DNA from: Gammaproteobacteria bacterium
GTDB lineage: Bacteria > Pseudomonadota > Gammaproteobacteria > UWMA-0217
Reading direction: 5' to 3'
NCBI GenBank assembly: GCA_026981985.1
Contig: JALSHZ010000118.1
Coordinates: 1-35,373, forward strand
DNA length: 35,373 nucleotides
In this document: piece by piece, positions 16,866 through 35,373 of the stretch
How positions within the stretch are numbered: position 1 is the first letter of the stretch
Layout: each line of letters starts with the position of its first letter
Notes under the pieces: model-generated
Seen by the model: only the letters and a program-made list of their open reading frames with translations
The model's database searches: none
What the model was told of the DNA's origin: nothing
Translations under genes and position numbers: made by a program

Positions 16866-16903
16866 ATATTCCGATTCAGGAAATTTTCGGAATATGATAT
16901 TCC
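16866..16903. promoter_or_regulatory. Operator-like half-sites and promoter in the hypF/hipBA divergent region
   Basis: Three copies of one half-site occur: ATATTCC (16866-16872), GGAATAT (16889-16895) and ATATTCC (16897-16903). The last two form the palindrome GGAATATGATATTCC. TATGAT (16893-16898) inside it, 17 bases after TTCCGA (16870-16875), is a likely hipBA -10. The first half-site overlaps TATAGT, a candidate hypF -10 on the other strand. HipB proteins bind inverted repeats over their own promoter, so this is probably the HipB operator. A second hipBA promoter candidate is TTTACG-17-TAATAG at 16981-17009. Confidence 0.55.
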
Positions 16904-17052
16904 AATATCGACCTTTACCCAGAAATTTCCAGATTTCCACCCAACAAGACTTTAGCCCAGAAAATTCGTCATTCCATGAGTTTACGTCCATAATAGTGCC
17001 CACTAATAGCAATAAAGACCACCAACATGAACGATATATCGGAACTCCCCAG

Positions 17053-17382
17053 ATGAAGCAAACGATACCGATTCCAGTCAGACGGGTCCTGCGCAAGCTC
17101 GGACAGGATATCCGTGATGCCCGACTCAGAAGACGCATTCCGACAGCGGTCATGGCTGAAAGAGCATCGATCAGCCGAACGACACTGAACAAGATCGAAA
17201 AGGGCGATCCTGGCGTTTCGCTGGGTAACTATGCCAATGTACTCTTTGTTTTAGGACTGGCAGAGCGGTTGGGCGAGCTGGCGGATGCCAAGACGGATAC
17301 TGTCGGACTTGAACTCGAAGAGGAACGGCTGCCACAACGCATCCGGACACCGCGTCGCCTTGGGCACAAGGGCAGTGCCTAA
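17053..17382 (+). CDS. hipB: HipB-like XRE-family antitoxin
   Basis: A 109-residue helix-turn-helix protein and the antitoxin partner of the downstream HipA. The HTH spans about residues 15-72 (LGQDIRDARLRRRIPTAVMAERASISRTTLNKIEKG). The C-terminal tail is basic (RLPQRIRTPRRLGHKG). Such antitoxins bind HipA and repress the operon through an inverted repeat; a fitting repeat lies at 16866-16903. The ATG at 17053 matches where the family begins; the frame is open 53 codons further upstream, but that part covers the promoter region. Its stop overlaps the hipA start by one base (TAATG), which couples the two. Confidence 0.88.
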   Translation: MKQTIPIPVRRVLRKLGQDIRDARLRRRIPTAVMAERASISRTTLNKIEKGDPGVSLGNYANVLFVLGLAERLGELADAKTDTVGLELEEERLPQRIRTPRRLGHKGSA

Positions 17383-18632
17383 TGGAAACCGAAGTTTTCG
17401 TTTACGTGGATATCGCCGGTAAATCGCGTTTGGCTGGACGACTATGGACACGTACACGTAAAGGTCGGGAAAGCGCTACCTTCGAATATGATCCGGGCTG
17501 GCTCGAATATGCAGACCGATTCTCTCTAGAGCCAGCGCTGACGCTTGGCCCCGGCCCTTTCCATACCCCGTCCGGCCGATCTCTCTTCGGCGCCATTGGT
17601 GATTCAGCTCCAGATCGTTGGGGGCGTGTGCTGATGCGCCGAGCGGAAAGGCGACGGGCGGCGCATGCGGGTGAAACACCGTGCAGCCTGATGGAGATCG
17701 ACTACCTGCTTATGGTCGATGATGAAGCCCGCCAAGGTGCATTACGTTTTGCCAAGCAAGAAGGGGGCCCGTTTCTTGCCGAACATGCAGCCACTCGCAT
17801 ACCACCCCTGATCGAGCTGCCACGTCTACTCTCAGCAGCGGAACATGTTGCTGGAGACATAGACAGCGACGAGGATTTGCGACTGCTGCTCGCCCCCGGT
17901 TCGTCGCTGGGTGGCGCTCGTCCCAAGGCATCCATTCGTGACCGGGATGGACATCTTGCCATCGCCAAGTTTCCACACAAGGACGACGAGACCAATGCAG
18001 TTTTGTGGGAAGCGGTCGCACTACGACTAGCAGAGAAGGCTGACATCCCAGTGCCAGACTGGCGAATCGAGCCAGTTGCAAACAAGGCGGTATTGGTGCT
18101 GCGCCGATTCGATCGAGTAAAAGGCCAACGTATTCCGTTTCTTTCGGCCATGAGTATGCTCGGAGCCAGCGACAACGAATCACGAAGCTACCTGGAATTT
18201 GTCGATGCGCTGCGCCGGTATGGGGCCAGCCTGAAACAGGATATGCATGCACTGTGGCGACGAATCGTTTTCAATATTCTGATTTCCAACACCGATGACC
18301 ATTTGCGCAATCACGCATTCCTCTATACCGGCCTGGAAGGGTGGCGCTTGGCCCCAGCCTACGATCTCAACCCAGTTCCCGTGGATATCAAACCCCGTGT
18401 ACTGACCACGGCTATCGATCTCGACGACAGTACGGCTTCATTGGACCTGGCAATGAGCGTGGCGGACTACTTTGCGCTAAGCGCAAACAAGGCGCGGGAA
18501 ATTGCGGCCGACGTCGGGCTGGCCGTGGCAACATGGCGTGAAGAGGCTGCACGAATAGGGCTGACAACAGCAGAAATTGAGCGCATGGCATCCGCGTTCG
18601 AACATCAGGACCTGAGAGAAGCTATATCATGA
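17382..18632 (+). CDS. hipA: HipA family serine/threonine kinase toxin
   Basis: A 416-residue HipA-type kinase. HipA toxins phosphorylate glutamyl-tRNA synthetase (E. coli) or related targets and induce persistence. The catalytic parts look intact: the phosphorylatable loop SSLGGARPKA (S175 corresponds to Ser150 of E. coli HipA), the catalytic aspartate in NTDDHLRNHAF (D305) and the metal-binding aspartate in PAYDLNP (D328). The N-terminal HipA_N domain carries GRSLFGAIGDSAPDRWGR, typical of the family. It overlaps hipB by one base and ends 24 bases before the convergent hupV. Nothing suggests decay. The target in this organism is unknown. Confidence 0.92.
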   Translation: METEVFVYVDIAGKSRLAGRLWTRTRKGRESATFEYDPGWLEYADRFSLEPALTLGPGPFHTPSGRSLFGAIGDSAPDRWGRVLMRRAERRRAAHAGETPCSLMEIDYLLMVDDEARQGALRFAKQEGGPFLAEHAATRIPPLIELPRLLSAAEHVAGDIDSDEDLRLLLAPGSSLGGARPKASIRDRDGHLAIAKFPHKDDETNAVLWEAVALRLAEKADIPVPDWRIEPVANKAVLVLRRFDRVKGQRIPFLSAMSMLGASDNESRSYLEFVDALRRYGASLKQDMHALWRRIVFNILISNTDDHLRNHAFLYTGLEGWRLAPAYDLNPVPVDIKPRVLTTAIDLDDSTASLDLAMSVADYFALSANKAREIAADVGLAVATWREEAARIGLTTAEIERMASAFEHQDLREAIS

Positions 18633-18656: not shown

Positions 18657-20105
18657 TCAATGCACGGTACAAACCATGCAGGGATCGAACGAGCGGACGA
18701 TGTGCTGAATGGCGACATCAGTTTTACCATCATTCCCCACCACAGTGCCGACGAGGGCCTGTTCCAGCGCGCCGGGGGTGCCTTGGCCATCACGTGGGGA
18801 GAAATTCCAGGTGGTGGGTGCGATGATCTGGTAGTTCAAGATCCGCCCGTTGCGTACGCGTATCCAGTGTCCGAGGCTGCCGCGCGCGGCTTCGACCAGC
18901 CCTTCCCCCTCAGCTTCGTCAACCTCGGCTGCGGCGTGGCGGAACGGCGCTTTCGGATCGATCTGGCGAACCCAGCTTTCCATTTGTGGCACGAGCCGGG
19001 CGATCTCCAGCAAGCGACCAACGATACGGCCTTTGACGTTGCTGTCATGCGCTGAGGCCAGATCGAGCATCAACGGCTGCGCGTCGATGACTTGCCTTGC
19101 CTGGGCACCGACCTCCATGACCTGACGATCATAGCGGGGTGCCTTGCACCAGCTGTAACCGTCCTGCTGCTCCGGGTCGGGAGAAGTCGTGCCCAGCAAG
19201 GGATGCTTCGGGCCATTTTGCGACAGCATCCAGCTATGACTGATGTCTTCGGCAATCTGACTGCTATCGAACGACCCGACCCCCTGCACAGGATCAAACA
19301 AGCCGCGGGCAAACAAGTGGTCATCACCGACACCATAAGCCCCGTAGCTGAGAAAACGCGGCGGGATTCGCCCAAGGCGGTGGAGTTCCAGTGCATCGGC
19401 CAGCTGCAGAAAAGCGGCAAAATCGCTGCTGGCATGCGCCACCTGCCAGCGCGCCAGCACCTCAATCGAAGCAAGCTCTGCAACGGACTCCAGCGCATCA
19501 TCGAATAACTGCGTTTCAAGGAACTGCCGAAAGCCGCCGAGAATCGCCAGCAGCTCGACTTTTTGCGCAGCCGTCGGCGCGGTGGTAACGCCTGCAGGCT
19601 GGACGCTCATGGTGTGCGGCCATTTTCCAGCGAGGATGCCGGTGATATGCATGAATTCTGCGCGCGCCCTCAGCATCGACACCGCCGCCGAACCCTGCTG
19701 GGCTTTGAATCGTGCGGCAATCGCTCCATGCCAGGGCGCACTGGCATAGGCTTGCCGACAAAAGTCGGGCATGAAGAACAGGTAGAAATGCGTCAGATGA
19801 TCGGCAAGGTTTTCGCAGGCGAGAATCAGGTTGGTAACCAGTTCGGCATTGGGCGGCCGCTCGATACCTTGCGCAACCGCCAGAGCATTCGCTGCTGCAA
19901 TCGACTGTGATACCGAGCAAATACCGCAGATACGCGGCGTATAGACCAGCGCATCCTCGGCAGGCTTGCCCTGCAAAATCTGCTCGAAGCCGCGATACAG
20001 CGGCGAATTGACCCAGGCCGCGCTGACCTGCCCGTCCCTCAACTCGACTTCGACTTCGAGATCCCCCTCGACGCGGTTGAACGGCCCATACAACTTACGT
20101 GTCAC
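18657..20105 (-). CDS. hupV: Regulatory (H2-sensing) [NiFe]-hydrogenase large subunit HupV
   Basis: A 482-residue large subunit of a cytoplasmic sensory hydrogenase (group 2b type, HupV/HoxC). The Ni-Fe ligands are present as two CxxC motifs: RICGIC (C60, C63) and DPCMVC (C476, C479). The protein ends TVH directly after the second motif, with no C-terminal extension. Regulatory hydrogenases lack this extension and need no maturation protease, unlike HupL at 31724. Its start overlaps the hupU stop by 11 bases. It is the last gene of the hupT-U-V unit, converging on hipA. The H2 signal goes through HupT to HupR. Confidence 0.96.
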   Translation of the reverse strand: MTRKLYGPFNRVEGDLEVEVELRDGQVSAAWVNSPLYRGFEQILQGKPAEDALVYTPRICGICSVSQSIAAANALAVAQGIERPPNAELVTNLILACENLADHLTHFYLFFMPDFCRQAYASAPWHGAIAARFKAQQGSAAVSMLRARAEFMHITGILAGKWPHTMSVQPAGVTTAPTAAQKVELLAILGGFRQFLETQLFDDALESVAELASIEVLARWQVAHASSDFAAFLQLADALELHRLGRIPPRFLSYGAYGVGDDHLFARGLFDPVQGVGSFDSSQIAEDISHSWMLSQNGPKHPLLGTTSPDPEQQDGYSWCKAPRYDRQVMEVGAQARQVIDAQPLMLDLASAHDSNVKGRIVGRLLEIARLVPQMESWVRQIDPKAPFRHAAAEVDEAEGEGLVEAARGSLGHWIRVRNGRILNYQIIAPTTWNFSPRDGQGTPGALEQALVGTVVGNDGKTDVAIQHIVRSFDPCMVCTVH

Positions 20106-21099
20106 CGGCTTTTTTCCTTTGTCCTGGCGGGGTCACGATGATGCTTGCCGTCGCGTTGTCTTTCAAACGCTGCGGGGTGGCCGCTTTCGACAGCGAGGCC
20201 AGCGCAACGAACCATGCCTTGGGCATATCGGTCGGCAAGCCCACCGGGATGCCGGCAATCTTCGGCGTATCGGTAAAGCGATGACGCGGTGACTCGAACT
20301 CGGGCGCGGTGCAATTGATACAGGGGTAACCGCCATCGAGACAGGAACCAGCGCCGTTCCAGGGTCGAATATTGCAATCAGCCCGGGCCTGGGTGCCGAG
20401 ACAACCCTTGTGCTCCATCATGCAGCCCTTGTCGCCCAATTGCTCCGCACTGGCCTTGTATTCATAGAATTCGTTGCGCGCGCAGCCATGATGCACCAGA
20501 TGATCGGTATAGGTAGTGGGCCGGGAAAGCTCGTCCAGCGCATCGGCATCAACATCACCCAAGGCCAACTGTGCCAGCAAATCCGTGACCCAGTCCGGAT
20601 GCGTGGGACAGCCCGCGACATTGATCACGGGATAGCCCGCCGGCGACCGCCAACCATCACCCAGCAGGCCACCGGGGCGCTTGCCCTCATACTGCAAACC
20701 AATGGCATCGCCCGGATTATCACCCGCTGCGGTAATGCCGCCAAACGCTGCGCAGGAACCGATGGCAATGGTATGACGCGCTTTTTCGGCGAGCTTTGCC
20801 AGCCACCACATCATCGGCTTGCCCGTGCCCGCCAGCATATGAAAACGCCCCGTGCCATTGGGCCCGCGCATGACCGAGCCTTCCAGACAGAGTGCATCGA
20901 GCGCCTGCTCCCCCGCCACGATGGCCTCCAGCAGCGCTACGAATTCATCCAGCGAGGCCTCACTGAGTGATGGATGCCACAGCAACTCAATGCCGGCACT
21001 GCGCAAGCGGGTGTAGAGGTCGGGCGCTTCGGCATTCAGCAGTGACATGCTGCAACCACCACAGCCACCGGATTGCAGCCACAACACGGTAAAACTCAT
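20095..21099 (-). CDS. hupU: Regulatory [NiFe]-hydrogenase small subunit HupU
   Basis: A 334-residue iron-sulfur small subunit of the H2 sensor. The N-terminus MSFTVLWLQSGGCGGC contains the first cluster ligands (C13, C16) and has no twin-arginine signal, so the protein stays in the cytoplasm. Further cluster motifs are GSCAAFGG, VAGCPTHPDW, HHGCARNEFYEY, KGCLGTQARADC and PCINC. The proximal site has GCGGC rather than the six-Cys pattern of HupS. Regulatory hydrogenases are oxygen-insensitive by a different route, a narrow gas channel. It overlaps hupT by four bases and hupV by 11. Confidence 0.96.
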   Translation of the reverse strand: MSFTVLWLQSGGCGGCSMSLLNAEAPDLYTRLRSAGIELLWHPSLSEASLDEFVALLEAIVAGEQALDALCLEGSVMRGPNGTGRFHMLAGTGKPMMWWLAKLAEKARHTIAIGSCAAFGGITAAGDNPGDAIGLQYEGKRPGGLLGDGWRSPAGYPVINVAGCPTHPDWVTDLLAQLALGDVDADALDELSRPTTYTDHLVHHGCARNEFYEYKASAEQLGDKGCMMEHKGCLGTQARADCNIRPWNGAGSCLDGGYPCINCTAPEFESPRHRFTDTPKIAGIPVGLPTDMPKAWFVALASLSKAATPQRLKDNATASIIVTPPGQRKKAGDT

Positions 21100-22451
21100 G
21101 AGCGAACCTCCCCCACCGGGAAACTCAGCGTGAACACGGCACCACCAGCCGGATCATTCTTCACGGTGAGACTGCCATTGCACTGCTCCGTCGCCAGACC
21201 GTAGCTGATATACAGCCCCAGCCCGGTGCCCTTGCCAACGGGCTTGGTGGTAAAAAAAGGGTCGAATACCCGCAGCAGATCATCTTCGGCAATACCCGGA
21301 CCATTATCGTGAATCGTCACCACCGCCTGGCCCTGGCGTGCCGCCAGCGCCACATCGATGCGCGGTTGATCCAGCTCCTCGACAGCATCAAGCGCGTTTT
21401 GCAGCAGGTTGATCAGAATCTGCTGGATATAGCCTTCGCTGGCCTGGACGACGAGACGTTCCGGCACATCGAATAAAACCTGTGGCGGCGTGCGCGCCGA
21501 TTTCACCACCCAGTGCACCGCGCTCTTCACCAGGCTGACGAGATCGAACTCACCAACCGAATTGTTTTTCGGTGCAGAAAAACGCCGCAACTCCTGGACG
21601 ATATCGCGCACCCGCTCGGCACCTTCCAGTGACCCTTCCAGCAACGGCCCAATATCGTCGAGGATGTGGTCGATCTTCAGCTCGGCACGCAATTTTTCCC
21701 GCGCCTCGACCGAGATATTCCGATGCACCTCGTCGAGATACTGGCGAAACCGTGATTCATAACTGCGCAGCGCGTGCATGTTGCCGAAGACGAAACTGAT
21801 GGGATTATTCAGCTCATGCGCCACCCCTGCAACCAGGCGGCCGAGGGACGCCATCTTCTCGGACTGAATCAGCTGATTCTGCGCAGCCTTGAGCTGTTCA
21901 TGAGCCGCTTGCAGCTCGCGATAAGCGCGGCGAATCTCATCCAGTGGACGGCCCGTCAGCACCGACCCGAGCAAACGCCCGTCATGGGCATAATGCGCCT
22001 TACAGGTAACAGCCATCAGCACAAGCTCCCCCGAGCTATCGAGCATGCTGACCTCGCAATCGATCAGGTCGCCGGAACGAATCTTTTCCGGGAACTCATT
22101 GACCAACGGTGCTACCGACGGTGGGAACAATATCGACAACGGCTTGCCCTGAAGCGCCTCGCCGCGCTGCCCGATCAACCGCTCCAGCGTCTGATTGACG
22201 CGCTGAATCTTGCCATCGATATCTGCCACGACGAGTACATCGTGCATCGACGACAGCACGCTCTCGATAAACTGCTGCGCCTGCTCCAGCTCTTCATTTT
22301 TCTTTTCCAGCTCGACCTGATAAGTCACCAGATCGGCATAGATCGCATCCATCTGCTGGATCACATCAATCCAGGCATTATCCGTCATCTTCTCATCGAG
22401 ATTCCCGGCGACAGCGCAGGCAGAAATAGACGGGGAGGAATGCGTATTCAT
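21096..22451 (-). CDS. hupT: Sensor histidine kinase HupT (HoxJ-like) of the H2 sensing system
   Basis: A 451-residue soluble histidine kinase with no membrane segment. A coiled coil (about 35-62, rich in E, K and Q) leads into a PAS domain (about 62-170). A second coiled coil follows, and then the phospho-acceptor box with H212 (GVAHELNNPISFVFGN). The ATPase domain has N, G1 and G2 boxes (NLLQNALDAV, DNGPGIAEDD, GKGTGLGLYIS). In Rhodobacter capsulatus and Ralstonia the partner HupUV/HoxBC binds the PAS-containing region, and in R. capsulatus the kinase phosphorylates HupR and turns it off without H2. It overlaps hupU, so sensor and kinase are co-expressed. ATG at residue 22 is a possible alternative start. 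Confidence 0.95.
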   Translation of the reverse strand: MNTHSSPSISACAVAGNLDEKMTDNAWIDVIQQMDAIYADLVTYQVELEKKNEELEQAQQFIESVLSSMHDVLVVADIDGKIQRVNQTLERLIGQRGEALQGKPLSILFPPSVAPLVNEFPEKIRSGDLIDCEVSMLDSSGELVLMAVTCKAHYAHDGRLLGSVLTGRPLDEIRRAYRELQAAHEQLKAAQNQLIQSEKMASLGRLVAGVAHELNNPISFVFGNMHALRSYESRFRQYLDEVHRNISVEAREKLRAELKIDHILDDIGPLLEGSLEGAERVRDIVQELRRFSAPKNNSVGEFDLVSLVKSAVHWVVKSARTPPQVLFDVPERLVVQASEGYIQQILINLLQNALDAVEELDQPRIDVALAARQGQAVVTIHDNGPGIAEDDLLRVFDPFFTTKPVGKGTGLGLYISYGLATEQCNGSLTVKNDPAGGAVFTLSFPVGEVRS

Positions 22452-22621
22452 GGCATTTCAGTGGATTGGTGATGGCTCATGGCCGGAAGGAACATCCTAT
22501 ACGACTGACATCGTATCAAACTGCGGAATATCGTTGCCTGCTCCCCCCAATTGAGCCGTCGAAACTGGCAACGCTCCCCATAACGCCTAATAGTGCCTCG
22601 AATAGCTTGCGATGCCTGGCC

Positions 22622-22918
22622 TCATGGAAGATACCGATCTATTTCCAGCGCACCATGAAACACTCCAAGAATATCAATTACCCTGTTACTCACCGATAAA
22701 TATGCGATTCTGTAATGCCCATAGAGCAATATACGAACTTCGCCATCTGGCTCGGAACGGTACTTATACCCTATCTCCGGGTGATCCTTGAGCAATTGCG
22801 CCTTTGCATATATTCCTTCCACAACCCCGGCTGCTGCGATGGGATCGTCTTGGGAAATATATTCGTAGATGTCTTTCAGCCATGTTTCCGCCTCGGCCGT
22901 CCATCTTATTTCTGCCGT
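22622..22918 (-). CDS. RelE/ParE family toxin with apparent ACG start (or start-codon loss)
   Basis: The frame encodes a complete ParE-like toxin of 98 residues, starting (M)AEIRWTAEAETWLKDIYEY and ending ILGVFHGALEIDRYLP. The conserved C-terminal part IRILLYGHYRIAYL is present. In this family the protein normally begins MAEIRWT. Here the codon at that place is ACG (22918-22916), and no ATG, GTG or TTG occurs in frame between the upstream stop and a GTG at 22822. Starting at that GTG would remove the first third of the fold. It overlaps the antitoxin by 13 bases, as expected for a coupled pair. Either ACG is used through coupling or the toxin is silenced by a start mutation. Confidence 0.7.
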   Translation of the reverse strand, partial: TAEIRWTAEAETWLKDIYEYISQDDPIAAAGVVEGIYAKAQLLKDHPEIGYKYRSEPDGEVRILLYGHYRIAYLSVSNRVIDILGVFHGALEIDRYLP

Positions 22919-23091
22919 GAGCGGATTCGATGCGCTATTTCCTCATTCGACACCACACGCCCTTTCCGAGAATCCTCAAGACCACGTTCCACCATCCGTT
23001 CGAACGTCAGTTCACGCAAGATTTCCTCATATGTCGCATCATCTGGCTGCGACTCGATTACTTTTTTCATCTTTTCCTTGACTATTGCCAT
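22906..23091 (-). CDS. Antitoxin partner of the RelE/ParE toxin
   Basis: A 61-residue acidic and basic small protein: MAIVKEKMKKVIESQPDDATYEE, then ILRELTFERMVERGLEDSRKGRVVSNEE. This resembles the small antitoxins that I remember being paired with toxins of the MAEIRWT type; they have a helical DNA- or toxin-binding region and a disordered C-terminus. GGAGGC lies upstream of the ATG. An inverted repeat over the likely promoter (23119-23155) fits autoregulation. The pair sits between hupR and hupT, splitting two halves of one signalling system. The gene name cannot be given with certainty. Confidence 0.75.
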   Translation of the reverse strand: MAIVKEKMKKVIESQPDDATYEEILRELTFERMVERGLEDSRKGRVVSNEEIAHRIRSRQK

Positions 23092-23118
23092 AGAGCCTCG
23101 CCTCCAATATTTAATCGG

Positions 23119-23155
23119 CCTCTTATTGACGTAGTTTTAACATGTCAATAAGAGG
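23119..23155 (-). promoter_or_regulatory. 12-bp perfect inverted repeat over the toxin-antitoxin promoter
   Basis: CCTCTTATTGAC (23119-23130) and GTCAATAAGAGG (23144-23155) are perfect inverted arms 13 bases apart. On the minus strand a consensus TTGACA lies in the first arm, followed after 17 bases by TAAGAG in the second. An antitoxin bound there would block its own promoter. The same structure could form a hairpin after hupR, but no T-run follows it. Confidence 0.55.
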
Positions 23156-23177
23156 GTTCCCGCTTCCCACATTCACC

Positions 23178-24650
23178 TCAACTAGTATCCGCTGTTTCAC
23201 GCTCAAGTCCGTAGCGTTCGAGTTTACTGCGCAGGCCGACCCGAGACAGGCCGAGTTCCTGGGCGGCGCGGGTTTTGTTCCAGCGGTGGCGGACGAGGGT
23301 TTCTTTGAGAATTCTGGCTTCGAGTTGTTCGATGCGGTTTTTCAGCGTGCCACGCGCCGGACTGGTCACCAGCTTCATGTCGTTACGCAAGTCATCGGGA
23401 ATGGCGCGCAGCACATGGGGCGAGATCAGATCGGCACCGAGCCGGTCTTCCTGGGCCAGCACCAGCATTCGTTTGATTTCGTTTTGCAGCTCGCGCACGT
23501 TGCCGGGCCAGTGATAATTCTGCAAACAATCCAGCGCTTCATTGGTGAAGCCATCCACCGATTTACCGAGTTCGGCAATCGCTTCACCGAGCAGAAAAGT
23601 GGCCAGATACGGCACATCTTCGAGTCGATCGCGGAGGGGGGGCAGTTTGATGGTAAAGGTGGCGAGACGGTAGTAGAGATCCTGGCGGAAACGCCCGGCC
23701 CGGACTTCTTCTTCCAAGTCACGGTTGGTCGCGGCGATGACGCGGACATCGATTGGCCGCCGCCGGCTGCTGCCCAGCGGGCGTAGCTCGCGCTCCTGTA
23801 ATACTCGCAGCAGCTTGAGCTGAAATGCCGGGGAGATGTCACCGATTTCATCGAGGAATACGGTGCCGCCATTGGCGCTTTCGAACAGGCCGACGTGATC
23901 CTCCACCGCGCCGGTAAAGGCACCGCGCTTGTGGCCAAACAATTCACTCTCCAGTAACTCGTCCGGCAGCGCGCCGCAGTTTTCCGCCACGAACGGCTCG
24001 TTCTGGCGATGACTGTTGTAGTGCAAGGCGCGCGCGCAAAGTTCTTTGCCCGTGCCGGATTCGCCGGTGATCAGTACGCTGACATCGAAGGGCGCAACCT
24101 GTTTGACGGTTTCACAGGTCTGATTCATGCAGCTGTCCGGGCTACGGACGATACCAGCCCAACTGTAGTGCGATTTCAGTGCTTGGCGCTGCACATCAAT
24201 GGCTTCTTTCAGCGTTTTGGGCTGTAACTTCAACTCAATGGAGAGGCGCTCGTTCTTGCGGTTCAGCTCGAACAGCTCAACCGCATTTTGCAGCTTGAGG
24301 ATAACGTCATCAGGGTGCCACGGCTTGGCAATGAACTGGTAAATCCCCCCTTCATTGATCGCGTTGATCAGGTCCTCGGAATCGGTGTAACCCGAGATAA
24401 TGATGCGGATGATTTCCGGCCAGCGTTCGCGAATTTCGGCACAGAACTCGATTCCGGTGACGTCGGGCATGCGCTGGTCGCAGAGCACAACTTGGATCCA
24501 CTCGCGCTCCAGAATCCCGCGCGCTTGTTCGGCATTCGTCGCGGTATGCACATCGAAACGATCACAGAGGATTCTCTCCAGCGTCTCGATGGCGCGCACC
24601 TCATCATCAATGACGAGGACGCTGGGCAACGATGGCCCCATATCAGGCAT
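23178..24650 (-). CDS. hupR: NtrC-family response regulator HupR (HoxA-like)
   Basis: A 490-residue sigma-54 activator. The receiver domain has the phosphorylatable aspartate D58 ([13 protein letters not shown]). A central AAA+ domain carries Walker A GESGTGKE (about 196-203) and the sigma-54 contact loop GAFTGA at 243-248. The C-terminal Fis-type helix-turn-helix ([29 protein letters not shown]) binds upstream sites. HupR/HoxA activates hydrogenase structural genes; in R. capsulatus the unphosphorylated form is active. It overlaps hypB by eight bases, so it is the last gene of the long hupD-to-hupR unit. Intact GAFTGA fits the sigma-54 promoters proposed at 30457-30583. Confidence 0.96.
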
Positions 24651-30655: not shown

Positions 30656-31720
30656 ATGGTGGAAACGTTCTACGAGGTGATGCGGCGCCAGGGAATTTCC
30701 CGACGCAGCTTCCTCAAGTATTGCAGCCTCACCGCTGCAGCCCTCGGGCTAGGCCCCGAGTTCGCCGGCAAAATCGCACATGCGATGGAAACCAAACCCC
30801 GCATCCCAATCTTGTGGCTACATGGACTGGAATGCACCTGCTGCTCGGAATCCTTCATCCGCTCGGCACACCCATTGGCTAAGGACGTGATCCTGTCGAT
30901 GGTGTCACTCGACTACGACGACACGATCATGGCCGCAGCAGGTACCCAGGCTGAAGCCATCATCGAGGAGACGATCGAAAAATACGACGGCAACTTCATT
31001 CTTGCGGTCGAAGGTAATCCGCCGCTGAACCAGGATGGCATGTCCTGCATTATCGCCGGCAAGCCTTTCGTCGAGCAGCTAAAGCACGTTGCCGATCACT
31101 GCAAGGCGATCATCTCCTGGGGTTCCTGCGCATCGTATGGCTGCGTCCAGGCGGCACGCCCCAACCCGACCCGGGCAACGCCGGTTCACAAGGTGATCCA
31201 CGACAAGCCGATCATCAAGGTACCCGGCTGCCCACCCATCGCCGAAGTCATGACAGCGGTGGTGACCTATATCCTCACCTTCGAGCGCTTTCCGGAACTC
31301 GATCGGCAGGGACGGCCAAAGATGTTCTACAGCCAGCGTATCCACGACAAATGCTATCGCCGTCCGCATTTCGACGCCGGTCAGTTTGTCGAGTCATTCG
31401 ACGACGAAGGCGCACGCAAGGGTTACTGCCTGTACAAGGTCGGCTGCAAAGGGCCAACCACCTACAACGCTTGCTCGACAATCCGCTGGAATGAAGGCAC
31501 CTCCTTTCCGATCCAGGCCGGTCACGGCTGTATCGGCTGCTCCGAAGACGGTTTCTGGGACAAGGGCTCCTGGTATGCACGCCTGACCGATATCCATGAA
31601 TTCGGTATCGAAGGCAATGCTGACAACGTGGGCGGTACTGCTGCCGCTGTCGTAGGTGCTGGCATCGCCGCACACGCCGCTGTTTCTGCCGTCAAACGCG
31701 CCCAAAGAAAAGGAGACTGA
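30656..31720 (+). CDS. hupS: Uptake [NiFe]-hydrogenase small subunit HupS, oxygen-tolerant type
   Basis: A 354-residue small subunit carrying the three iron-sulfur clusters that lead electrons from the active site. A Tat signal is present ([22 protein letters not shown] at 16-17), with likely cleavage after AHA at 43. The first cluster motif is LECTCCSES, with C60, C62 and C63 (17, 19 and 20 in the mature protein). C157 and C162 follow in GSCASYGC and C191 in PGCPP. The extra cysteines at mature 19 and about 120 form the [4Fe-3S] proximal cluster of oxygen-tolerant group 1d enzymes. A C-terminal helix (about 327-345) anchors the protein in the membrane facing the periplasm. AAGGAG lies upstream of the ATG. 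Confidence 0.98.
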
Positions 31721-31723
31721 TCC

Positions 31724-33538
31724 ATGGCCGTAATACAAACTCCCAACGGTTATACCCTCGACAATTCCGGCCAGCGCGTCGTCGTCGACCCAGTGACGCG
31801 CATCGAAGGTCATATGCGCTGCGAGGTGAACCTCGACGAAAACAATGTCATCCGCAACGCGGTTTCCACCGGCACCATGTGGCGCGGGCTGGAAGTCATT
31901 CTCAAAGGCCGCGACCCGCGTGACGCCTGGGCTTTCGTGGAACGCATCTGCGGCGTCTGCACGGGCTGCCACGCACTCACATCGGTGCGCGCGGTGGAAG
32001 ACGCTCTGGGTATCAAGATCCCACATAATGCCCACCTGATTCGCGAGATGATGGCGAAGACACTACAGGTTCACGACCATGTGGTTCACTTCTATCACCT
32101 TCATGCACTGGACTGGGTCAACCCCGTCAATGCGCTGAAGGCCGATCCAAAGCAAACATCAAAGCTGCAGCACATCGTTTCACCGCACCATCCGATGTCC
32201 AGCCCCGGCTATTTCCGCGACATTCAGACGCGGATCAAGAAGTTTGTCGAATCCGGCCAGCTCGGTCCGTTCAAGAACGGCTACTGGGACAATCCGGCCT
32301 ACAAAATGCCGCCCGAAGCCGATCTGATGGCGGTGGCGCACTACCTGGAAGCGCTGGATCTGCAGAAAGAGTTTGTCAAGCTGCATACCGTCTTTGGCGG
32401 CAAGAACCCGCACCCGAATTACCTGGTCGGCGGCGTACCCTGCGCAATCAATATGGACGGCGATATGTCGGCAGGCGCACCACTGAACATGGAGCGACTG
32501 AATTTCGTCCTGGCGCGCATTCAGGAAATGGTGGATTTCAACAAGAACGTCTATGTACCCGACGTTATCGCCATTGCCAGCTTTTACAAGAATCAGCTCT
32601 GGGGTGGCGGCCTTGGCGCGCTCAACATCATGGACTACGGCGCCTATCCGAAGGTTCCTTACGACAAATCCACCGATCAGCTGCCCGGCGGCGTCATTCT
32701 CAATGGCAACTGGGACGAAGTGCTGCCGGTCGATCCACGCGACCCCGAGCAAGTGCAGGAGTTCGTCACCCATTCCTGGTACAGCTACCCGGACGAAGCC
32801 AAGGGACTGCACCCATGGGATGGCATTACCGAGCCCAATTACGAGCTCGGCGCCAACGCCAAAGGCACGCCAACCAATATCGAGGAGCTGGACGAAGCGG
32901 CGAAGTATTCCTGGATCAAATCCCCGCGCTGGCGTGGCAACGCCGTGGAAGTCGGCCCCCTGTCTCGCTATGTGCTCGCCTACGCCCAAGGGGTCGAATA
33001 CGTGCAGGAGCAGGTCAACCGCAGTCTGGCCGCATTCAATGGTCTTGCAGGCACCAATCTGGACGCGAAAACCGCACTCAATTCCACCATTGGCCGCACC
33101 TTGGCGCGCGCACTCGAATCCGAGTATTGCGCCGACATGATGGTGGACGACTGGAACCAGCTGATCAGCAATATCAAGAACGGCGACACCGCGACCGCCA
33201 ACATGGAAAAGTGGGATCCATCCACCTGGCCCAAAGAGGCCAAGGGTGTCGGCACCGCCGCCGCACCACGCGGTGCGCTGGGCCACTGGATTCGCATCAA
33301 GGACGGCAAGATCGAGAACTATCAGTGCGTCGTACCAACCACCTGGAACGGCTCCCCACGCGATCCGGCTGGCAATATCGGCGCGTTCGAAGCATCGCTG
33401 ATGAACACGCCGGTAGAACGCGCCAACGAGCCGGTCGAAATTCTGCGCACACTGCACAGTTTCGACCCCTGTCTTGCCTGCTCCACACACGTGATGAGCG
33501 AAGACGGTGAAGAACTGGCCAACGTCAAAGTACGCTAA
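31724..33538 (+). CDS. hupL: Uptake [NiFe]-hydrogenase large subunit HupL
   Basis: A 604-residue catalytic subunit that oxidises H2 in the periplasm. The Ni-Fe ligands are RICGVC (C76, C79) and DPCLAC (C583, C586). After the terminal His of CSTH (589) a 15-residue extension [15 protein letters not shown] follows, the piece removed by HupD once nickel is inserted. It has no signal peptide and is exported together with HupS through the Tat pathway. AAAGGAG lies before the ATG, three bases after the hupS stop. Confidence 0.98.
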
Positions 33539-33552
33539 TCGAGGAGAGAAAC

Positions 33553-33789
33553 ATGATTGGTAAAAAATATATCCTGCCTTTAATCGCAAGCCTGGCATCC
33601 CTGGCCTCCGGCGCTGCCAGCGCCCACCCGGCCGGACACGGTGAACTCTCGATGGGCGAACTGCTGGAGCATCTCGGCGCCAGCACCTTCCATATTGGCG
33701 TGATTGTTGTCGCCATTACCATCGGCGTACTGCTGTATCGCCTGCACGTTGGCCGCACATCCGACAAATCGGAGGCCAGTCATGAGTAG
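33553..33789 (+). CDS. Small membrane protein between hupL and hupC, unrecognised
   Basis: A 78-residue protein that I do not recognise. GAGGAGAG lies before the ATG, so it is probably translated. Residues 1-24 form a signal peptide with a good cleavage site ASA; the mature N-terminus would be HPAGHGELSMGE, starting with histidine. One membrane helix follows (about 47-63, HIGVIVVAITIGVLLYRL), then a short charged tail. Five histidines (25, 29, 40, 47, 65) stand out. Its stop overlaps the hupC start by eight bases, so it is coupled to the cytochrome. Position suggests a part in assembly, heme or metal supply, or electron transfer of the HupSLC complex. This is inference. Confidence 0.8.
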   Translation: MIGKKYILPLIASLASLASGAASAHPAGHGELSMGELLEHLGASTFHIGVIVVAITIGVLLYRLHVGRTSDKSEASHE

Positions 33790-34504
33790 CAGCGAAAACG
33801 CGGCACAGCTGGCACGAAGCGAGCCGTCGGTCTTCGTCTACGAGTGGCCGGTTCGTCTGTGGCACTGGATCAATGCACTGGGTATTACTGTGCTGGCGAT
33901 TACCGGATACTTCATAGGCTCACCGCCACCAACGCTATCGGGTGAGCCAAGCGACCACTACCTGTTCGGTTACATACGGTTTGCACACTTCGCCGCCGGT
34001 TACATCATTGGTGTTGGCTTTCTTTTCCGTCTCTATTGGTCATTTGTCGGTAACAAGAATGCACGCGAGATCTTTCTCCACAACATTCTCAGACCGACTT
34101 ACTGGAAAGAGCTGTGGCACGAAGTGAAGTGGTATCTATTTCTGGTGGATGAACCCAAGCAGTACGACGGACACAACCCGCTGGCGATCTTCGTCATGCA
34201 CTGGTTCTTCGTCTGGGGCATCGTTTTCATGATCGTCACCGGCTTCGCCCTCTATGGCGAAGGCACAGGTGCAGGATCATGGGCGCATACGCTCTTTAGC
34301 TCATGGGTGATTCCGCTGTTCGGCCAGAGCATGGACGTGCATACCTGGCACCACTTCGGCATGTGGCTGATCATCGTGTTCGTGATGATCCACGTCTACG
34401 TCGCCATCCGCGAAGACATCATGTCCAAACAGTCGATCATCAGCTCGATGATCAGCGGCTGGAGAAACTTCAAGGATTACGACAGCATTCCGAAGAAAAA
34501 ATAG
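33782..34504 (+). CDS. hupC: Hydrogenase cytochrome b subunit HupC
   Basis: A 240-residue Ni/Fe-hydrogenase b-type cytochrome (HupC/HyaC/HoxZ). It anchors HupSL and passes electrons to the quinone pool. Four membrane helices carry the usual histidines: H28 (RLWHWINAL), H69 (RFAHFAAGY), H187 and H190-H191 (VHTWHHFGMW) and H204 (MIHVYVAI). The true start is ATG 33782; 26 upstream codons belong to the neighbouring gene in another frame. It overlaps the small membrane protein gene by eight bases. Confidence 0.96.
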   Translation: MSSSENAAQLARSEPSVFVYEWPVRLWHWINALGITVLAITGYFIGSPPPTLSGEPSDHYLFGYIRFAHFAAGYIIGVGFLFRLYWSFVGNKNAREIFLHNILRPTYWKELWHEVKWYLFLVDEPKQYDGHNPLAIFVMHWFFVWGIVFMIVTGFALYGEGTGAGSWAHTLFSSWVIPLFGQSMDVHTWHHFGMWLIIVFVMIHVYVAIREDIMSKQSIISSMISGWRNFKDYDSIPKKK

Positions 34505-34619: not shown

Positions 34620-34895
34620 ATGACTAGCAAAACACTGGGGATCATCGCCGTCCTCTTTCTATCAACCCTCCCCGCCCTCCACGCCGGCTCCAACAACGGC
34701 TATACAACCGCCGCCAATGTCTACAGCGGATCAGCATCCCGCAGCTGGTTTGGCGGCGGCACCGCCTACGCCATCGCACAATGGAAAGCAGAAAGGGCAG
34801 CAGCATCAGCCAGCACTACTCATTCAGCCACAGCAACCAGTGACAATGCTGCCGAAGCGAGCCAGACACCTGATTCACATGAACTCCCCCAATAA
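34620..34895 (+). CDS. Small secreted protein downstream of hupC, unrecognised
   Basis: A 91-residue protein without a recognised family. GAGGAAAAC lies before the ATG. Residues 1-22 form a signal peptide ending LHA, so it is probably exported to the periplasm. The mature part starts GSNNGYTTAANVYSGSASRSWFGGGTAYAIAQWKAE and then becomes Ala/Ser/Thr-rich, likely disordered. It has no cysteine. It is 115 bases after hupC, with a hairpin between, so it may be a separate unit. A link to hydrogenase is only by position. Confidence 0.55.
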   Translation: MTSKTLGIIAVLFLSTLPALHAGSNNGYTTAANVYSGSASRSWFGGGTAYAIAQWKAERAAASASTTHSATATSDNAAEASQTPDSHELPQ

Positions 34896-35138: not shown

Positions 35139-35373
35139 TCAAGTTATTACATATTGCACATGTGACTCATGAAAAAACCGCTTGATCAAATCGGTACTTT
35201 TTTGCAGCGAACGCAGTGCAGAACGCGCACGGGTAGCCAACGCTTTCTTGGTTTTTACGACGGTTCGGCCTAATCGGTGGGTTTTGACATGGTTCCAAAC
35301 CAGTTCGTCCGGGTTCAGCTCAGGTGAATAGGGTGGCAGATAGAAAATCTTCAGCTTACCCTCTGTGCTTTCT
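35139..35373 (-). mobile_element. IS630-family transposase, C-terminal part, continues beyond window
   Basis: The minus strand encodes 77 residues ending at a TGA (35139-35141). YLPPYSPELNPDELVWNHVK is the conserved last part of the DDE catalytic domain in IS630/Tc1-type transposases, with the third catalytic acid in NPDE. The rest of the gene lies beyond the right edge. I did not find the terminal inverted repeat with certainty. It marks the right flank of the hydrogenase locus. Confidence 0.85.

Follow-up and report, generated by a model that had tools for sequence, protein, structure and literature searches.

HupE/UreJ permeases (PF04955) are six-helix proteins of ~190-210 aa (~175 mature residues). 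Their signal peptide ends at an AH junction, leaving a mature N-terminal His; a His pair (HX5DH) stands at the start of the first transmembrane (TM) helix, and FHGx[AV]HGxE forms the second motif of the family. Sequence searches found no HupE homologue in the PDB, and in the open-licence literature we found no paper on a truncated or one-helix HupE/UreJ. Small components, NikN and CbiN, are also part of the ECF-type Ni/Co importers. In other proteins, the 'anglerase' domains Ang-1 and Ang-2 are fused to HupE/UreJ-2; these domains carry an N-terminal His after signal cleavage, bind metal in vitro and have been proposed to catch metal and feed the HupE/UreJ-type permease (PMC12537917). Full activity of the hydrogenase HynSL of Alteromonas macleodii in E. 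coli requires Orf2, an accessory protein of unknown function (PMC3102683). The gene for Orf2 adjoins a cytochrome gene (PMC3102683).

Here we analyse a contig of 35,373 nucleotides from a gammaproteobacterium (JALSHZ010000118.1; hereafter, the window) that encodes, between hupL and hupC, a protein of 78 aa, P0001. This protein belongs to a previously undescribed family of very small, single-helix membrane proteins encoded in hydrogenase and urease operons, for which we propose the name mini-HupE (minis for short). The minis share with HupE/UreJ the AH junction and the mature N-terminal His, which are also seen in the HupE proteins encoded in the same slot, as well as the two His where the first TM helix begins and the locations in nickel-enzyme operons, that is, the hupL-hupC and ureA-ureB slots. 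Unlike the permease, P0001 has one TM helix and ~54 mature residues, and its counterpart of HX5DH is HLGASTFH, in which both His are kept but Asp is replaced by Phe. The second motif is present in most slot HupE proteins but absent from P0001, which ends earlier, and because this motif and five helices are missing, P0001 is not a complete permease. The N-terminal His after signal cleavage is common to the minis and Ang-1/Ang-2, but the latter fold in the periplasm as domains of a permease fusion, whereas a mini consists of a short stub, with putative metal binding, carried by a helix of its own; the Ang domains on HupE/UreJ-2 are the nearest functional precedent. NikN/CbiN resemble the proposed minis in role, as small membrane proteins beside a larger importer in nickel uptake, but, compared by description, differ in genes and context. 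DUF6732 (PF20506) proteins are likewise short and have a similar AHPGH-type start; three minis (L205, L167 and L232) match this family weakly, below the cut-off, two of the three over only the signal peptide and first His, and P0001 does not match it. The reading that we favour, with modest confidence, is that P0001 is a divergent one-helix protein derived from the N-terminus and first TM helix of HupE/UreJ that captures nickel for the hydrogenase.

The gene between hupL and hupC

The relevant features of the window are as follows.

30656-31720, + strand: hupS, Tat-type hydrogenase small subunit (confirmed)
31724-33538, + strand: hupL, NiFe hydrogenase large subunit (PF00374, 721.9 bits)
33541-33546, + strand: Shine-Dalgarno-like GAGGAG of P0001 (from sequence)
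33553-33789, + strand: P0001, 78 aa, proposed mini-HupE (same-genus homologue in the same slot; family profile against decoys)
33553-33624, + strand: predicted signal peptide of P0001, 24 aa, ending AASA|H (sequence; AlphaFold2 helix 4-23; AH junction common to the aligned minis)
33625-33639, + strand: mature N-terminus HPAGH; the alpha-amino group, His1 and His5 are putative periplasmic metal ligands (His1 in the aligned minis)
33670-33693, + strand: HLGASTFH (HX6H), aligned with HX5DH of HupE TM1, Phe for Asp (first His invariant in minis)
33694-33744, + strand: hydrophobic core (residues 48-64) of the predicted single TM helix, followed by a mixed-charge tail (sequence; AlphaFold2 helix 45-76)
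33771-33789, + strand: ribosome-binding site of hupC, GGAGG (33771-33775), and hupC start ATG (33782) within the 3' end of P0001; 8-nt overlap
33782-34504, + strand: hupC, b-type cytochrome (TIGR02125, 236.5 bits)

The window DNA reads as an open frame of 78 codons on the + strand, from ATG at 33553 to TAG at 33787-33789. After AASA, the protein continues as HPAGHGELSMGELLEHLGASTFHIGVIVVAITIGVLLYRLHVGRTSDKSEASHE, and the stop codon falls within hupC. Given that the start codon and ribosome-binding site of hupC lie within the 3' end of the P0001 gene, translational coupling of the two genes is plausible. The AlphaFold2 monomer (mean pLDDT 80.7) has helices at residues 4-23 (the signal), 34-43 and 45-76; together with the sequence, it is the basis for the signal cleavage and the predicted N-out, C-in topology. 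The preliminary description of this locus had read the frame in the same way, with a signal peptide ending ASA, a mature N-terminal His and a single helix, all of which is borne out; HPAGH and the four further His that it noted make six His in the mature part, two of them in HPAGH.

No entry of Pfam, NCBIfam or the PDB matches P0001, and as a single query it found no relative among the genome contigs, so that a scan for HupC and a survey of the slot were used in place of this search. A same-genus genome encodes a homologue with 43% identity in the same hupL-hupC slot, and a mini profile built without P0001's genus gives P0001 21.2 bits, against a maximum of 15.8 in 1000 shuffles. The gene is therefore real and not a chance open reading frame.

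Several other parts of the window are of note. Downstream of hupC (34620-34895, +) lies a gene for a second unknown secreted protein, of 91 aa, with no Pfam or NCBIfam match; the genome of the same genus has it too, on the minus strand of L002 (539-811), and the conserved core is NGYTT.ANVY.GSASRSWFGGGTAYAI.QWKAERAA. Inserted between hypF and hupV, inside the hydrogenase gene cluster, is a HipB/HipA-like pair, by eye a helix-turn-helix protein and a HipA-type kinase (16894-18632, +). Next to the hyp genes, by eye, a HupUV-type regulatory hydrogenase, a histidine kinase and an NtrC-type response regulator (18657-24650, -) make up a complete set for sensing H2. The window and contig end in a transposase fragment, LPPYSPELNPDELVWNHVK (35139-35372, -; IS630-like by eye).

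The hupL-hupC slot in other genomes

We collected hup operons via HupC from whole genomes and the genome collection and read the hupL-hupC gap in each, a sample that is biased toward HupC close to that of the window. Among the 124 loci, the slot is empty in 74 (gap of -14 to 202 nt) and is filled by HupE in 31, by a mini in 18 (gap of 230-462 nt) and by another gene in one. The small open reading frames that the preliminary description proposed to seek at this position were thus found, the 18 sharing the plan of P0001. On plasmids of Acidovorax temperans and Rhizobium sp., the slot gene is annotated as 'HupE/UreJ family protein'; a sequence search of plasmids for minis found none. Two slots hold unusual HupE forms, namely, a reduced protein of 121 aa that has HX5DH and lacks the second motif (L113) and an altered one with HPVLGLGQ instead of HX5DH and an intact-looking FALLHGHIHALEA (L064).

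In all, 29 small proteins were found with the plan of P0001: an AH start, a His-rich periplasmic stub, one TM helix and, usually, a basic tail. Two of the carriers, Cocleimonas flava (L048) and Thiolinea disciformis (L080), are in culture. An alignment that begins at the mature His shows two invariant His in the minis, namely, His1, whose presence in 22 of the 22 aligned sequences reflects their having been cut at that residue, and the first His of HX6H or HX5[DE]H; the uncut alignment has an invariant Ala beside His1. Eleven relatives (L078, L081, L082, L091, L112, L164, L165, L167, L172, L184 and L211) contain an exact HX5DH or HX5EH. We propose to delimit the family by an AH start, a single TM helix, a length under ~90 aa, location in a nickel-enzyme operon and a match to a profile built without the protein's own genus, all of which are found in P0001.

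Relation to HupE/UreJ

HupE_UreJ is the best Pfam family for several minis, and four (L078, L081, L164 and L165) exceed the PF04955 gathering cut-off of 23 bits, although only over positions ~2-53 of the 179 in the profile; P0001 falls below this cut-off and is assigned to no Pfam family. After removal of the signal peptides, each protein was compared with 1000 shuffles that kept its composition and segments; against the HupE HMM, ten minis score above all of their shuffles. Direct homology of P0001 to HupE was not supported in this test (2.1 bits, no better than the shuffles), and L004, L006, L046-L048, L080 and L109 likewise show no direct similarity. These are the proteins for which one could suppose that a small His-rich membrane protein unrelated to HupE took the slot by convergence, the HX6H group of P0001 having no Asp in the motif. 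However, this group is tied to the HX5DH-type minis: a profile of other minis, from outside the group, gives P0001 14.1 bits, a score reached by 2 of 1000 shuffles, and places most of the group above all or nearly all shuffles, and L112, with an exact HX5DH, scores 38.7 bits with the profile of the P0001 group. We accordingly regard convergence as unlikely.

Profile comparison with hhalign gives probabilities of 96% for HX5DH-type minis versus HupE and 94% for P0001-type versus HX5DH-type minis (with single-comparison E-values); P0001-type minis compared directly with HupE gave nothing. Because the similarity runs through the HX5DH-type minis only, P0001 is joined to HupE in two steps, and its link to the permease is indirect, via its relatives.

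Nickel-enzyme operons

A profile of the mature minis was run against 369 genomes of the class, 398 of the phylum and 149 of one alphaproteobacterial-type family. Across the three scans, all 12 mini-sized matches lie in nickel-enzyme operons (hydrogenase/hyp or urease), seven of them independent and five already in the profile and hence not independent. Five are in the hup slot (G000, which is P0001's own genome, G001, G077, G351 and G608), three directly follow the gene for the hydrogenase large subunit (G221, G127 and G361), one follows hypE (G225), two lie between ureA and ureB (G621, with Pfam-confirmed urease genes, and G881) and one follows ureG, itself Pfam-confirmed (G525). Genome-wide, the profile also retrieves the N-termini of full HupE, most of which match an independent model of the HupE C-terminal part; among the large-frame matches for which DNA was fetched, most are full HupE/UreJ by this separate model. 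In the scanned genomes, family matches were confined to nickel-enzyme operons. The resemblance of the P0001 start to mature HupE/UreJ, remarked on at the outset, is thus supported: HupE holds the same slot in related operons, relatives match HupE TM1 and all contexts are those of nickel enzymes.

The urease operons offer a parallel. Between ureA and ureB, Paracoccus pantotrophus and Roseateles sp. XES5 encode full UreJ, whereas a mini is encoded there in Sulfitobacter, Ruegeria, Limimaricola, M382, G621 and G881; the position downstream of ureG is taken by UreJ in Acinetobacter and by a mini in G525. On the Rhodobacterales plasmids, this ureA-ureB gene is annotated as a 'hypothetical protein'; its product, 49-65 aa long, combines an AH start with a His-rich stub and one TM helix. 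The plasmid proteins (Sulfitobacter, Ruegeria, Limimaricola and M382) contain no HX5DH, and their assignment follows from plan and slot rather than from significant sequence similarity. Four such Rhodobacterales ureA-ureB proteins of 49-65 aa (L231, L232, L233 and L240) have a possible link to DUF6732 (E = 0.022 for L232).

From its operon position and the 8-nt overlap with hupC, P0001 could be taken for a further structural component of the HupSLC complex in the membrane, in contact with HupC or with the anchor of HupS, its His having a structural role. Yet 74 of the 124 hupL-hupC loci lack such a gene, relatives are found in urease operons, and the minis L164, L165, L167 and L172 are encoded after hupL or hypE by genomes lacking a HupC match (the HupC search gave none in G221, G127, G225 or G361), so that we consider a structural subunit quite unlikely. 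On the last two of these grounds, we reject the mini as an obligate partner of HupC and do not retain the specific coupling to HupC suggested in the preliminary description; the copper or heme helper also suggested there found no evidence.

Evolution of the minis

On the HupC tree, minis are interspersed with HupE clades, and the mini state requires at least 12 changes, of which at least five are forced by strongly supported branches. Three Burkholderiales minis (L100, L101 and L145) have a motif one residue shorter (HX4), and the same HX4 occurs in HupE of neighbouring branches (L019, L021, L077, L103 and L123). The interspersion and the deletion common to neighbouring HupE point to in-place truncation on several occasions; with few changes and a quick tree, this evidence is suggestive of repeated truncation of HupE to a mini.

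The family evolves fast: within the same genome pair, amino acid identity is 42% for the mini versus 82% for HupC. By the Nei-Gojobori method, dN/dS is 0.24-0.54 for the minis (0.54, with dS of 1.04, for the P0001 pair) and ~0.1-0.2 for hupC where measurable. Fast evolution, the interspersion with HupE and the existence of short or altered HupE forms such as L113 and L064 would fit decayed, functionless hupE remnants, but the dN/dS values, the intact signal peptide and TM helix, the conserved His, the spread over gamma-, beta- and alphaproteobacteria and the lack of HupE debris between the mini and hupC in the window make decay very unlikely.

Nickel transporters in genomes with minis

The preliminary description held that HupE/UreJ is missing here, which is correct for the window but not for the genome: contig C125 carries tandem HupE-type genes (L041, 7273-7902 and 7899-8543, 4-nt overlap) away from the hydrogenase genes, the first with HX5DH and the second with HPFLVPAH, in which Asp is lost. 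Adjacent pairs of HupE matches are also present in G003, G077, G148, G256, G372, G373 and G374. Including P0001's own, 10 of 25 mini-bearing genomes encode a full-length HupE in trans, so that strict absence of HupE where a mini is present is rejected, and because only 10 of the 25 do so, HupE is not an obligate partner of the minis. A canonical full-length HupE is not seen in ~15 of the mini-bearing genomes. CbiM-type transporters are above the cut-off in 11 of the 18 mini genomes tested and NicO is present in 3 of 17; the searches covered HupE, CbiM-type transporters and NicO, and several genomes are draft MAGs that may miss genes. That the minis are self-sufficient minimal carriers, single-helix homo-oligomers forming the Ni2+ path that HupE makes with six helices, could be argued from these ~15 genomes, most tested of which lack NicO, but is highly improbable given the absence of a second metal motif, the CbiM-type transporters, the draft MAGs and a search confined to these three transporter types.

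A possible role in nickel capture

Capture of nickel for the hydrogenase by a protein derived from the start of HupE/UreJ thus remains our preferred reading. Because a free His at the N-terminus, a pair of His at the membrane interface and a membrane anchor are conserved and the gene is always near a nickel enzyme, the simplest reading is that a mini may be a periplasm-facing module for Ni2+ capture or hand-over to an importer; metal binding, nickel as the metal and the importer as partner are what we infer. Once the signal peptide has been removed, the exposed His1, His5 and, at the membrane surface, the two His of HX6H would face the periplasm; these His could collect or hold Ni2+ beside an inner-membrane importer, and nickel would thereby reach the HypA/HypB insertion step for HupL. 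More tentatively, it is possible, if rather doubtful, that the minis are functional nickel-handling parts split from the permease TM1 several times independently that, in genomes without full HupE, serve nickel entry on their own or act as an interchangeable antenna of importers unrelated to one another or to HupE.

How nickel in the periplasm comes to be used in the maturation of hydrogenase and urease is understood only in part, and the minis, with their short genes, are a concrete, testable candidate for a part of this route. An unannotated family of small proteins shares the HupE/UreJ slot in both kinds of operon, which is a caution that the first helix of HupE may be present in operons scored as 'lacking hupE' and suggests repeated splitting of a membrane transporter down to a one-helix protein.
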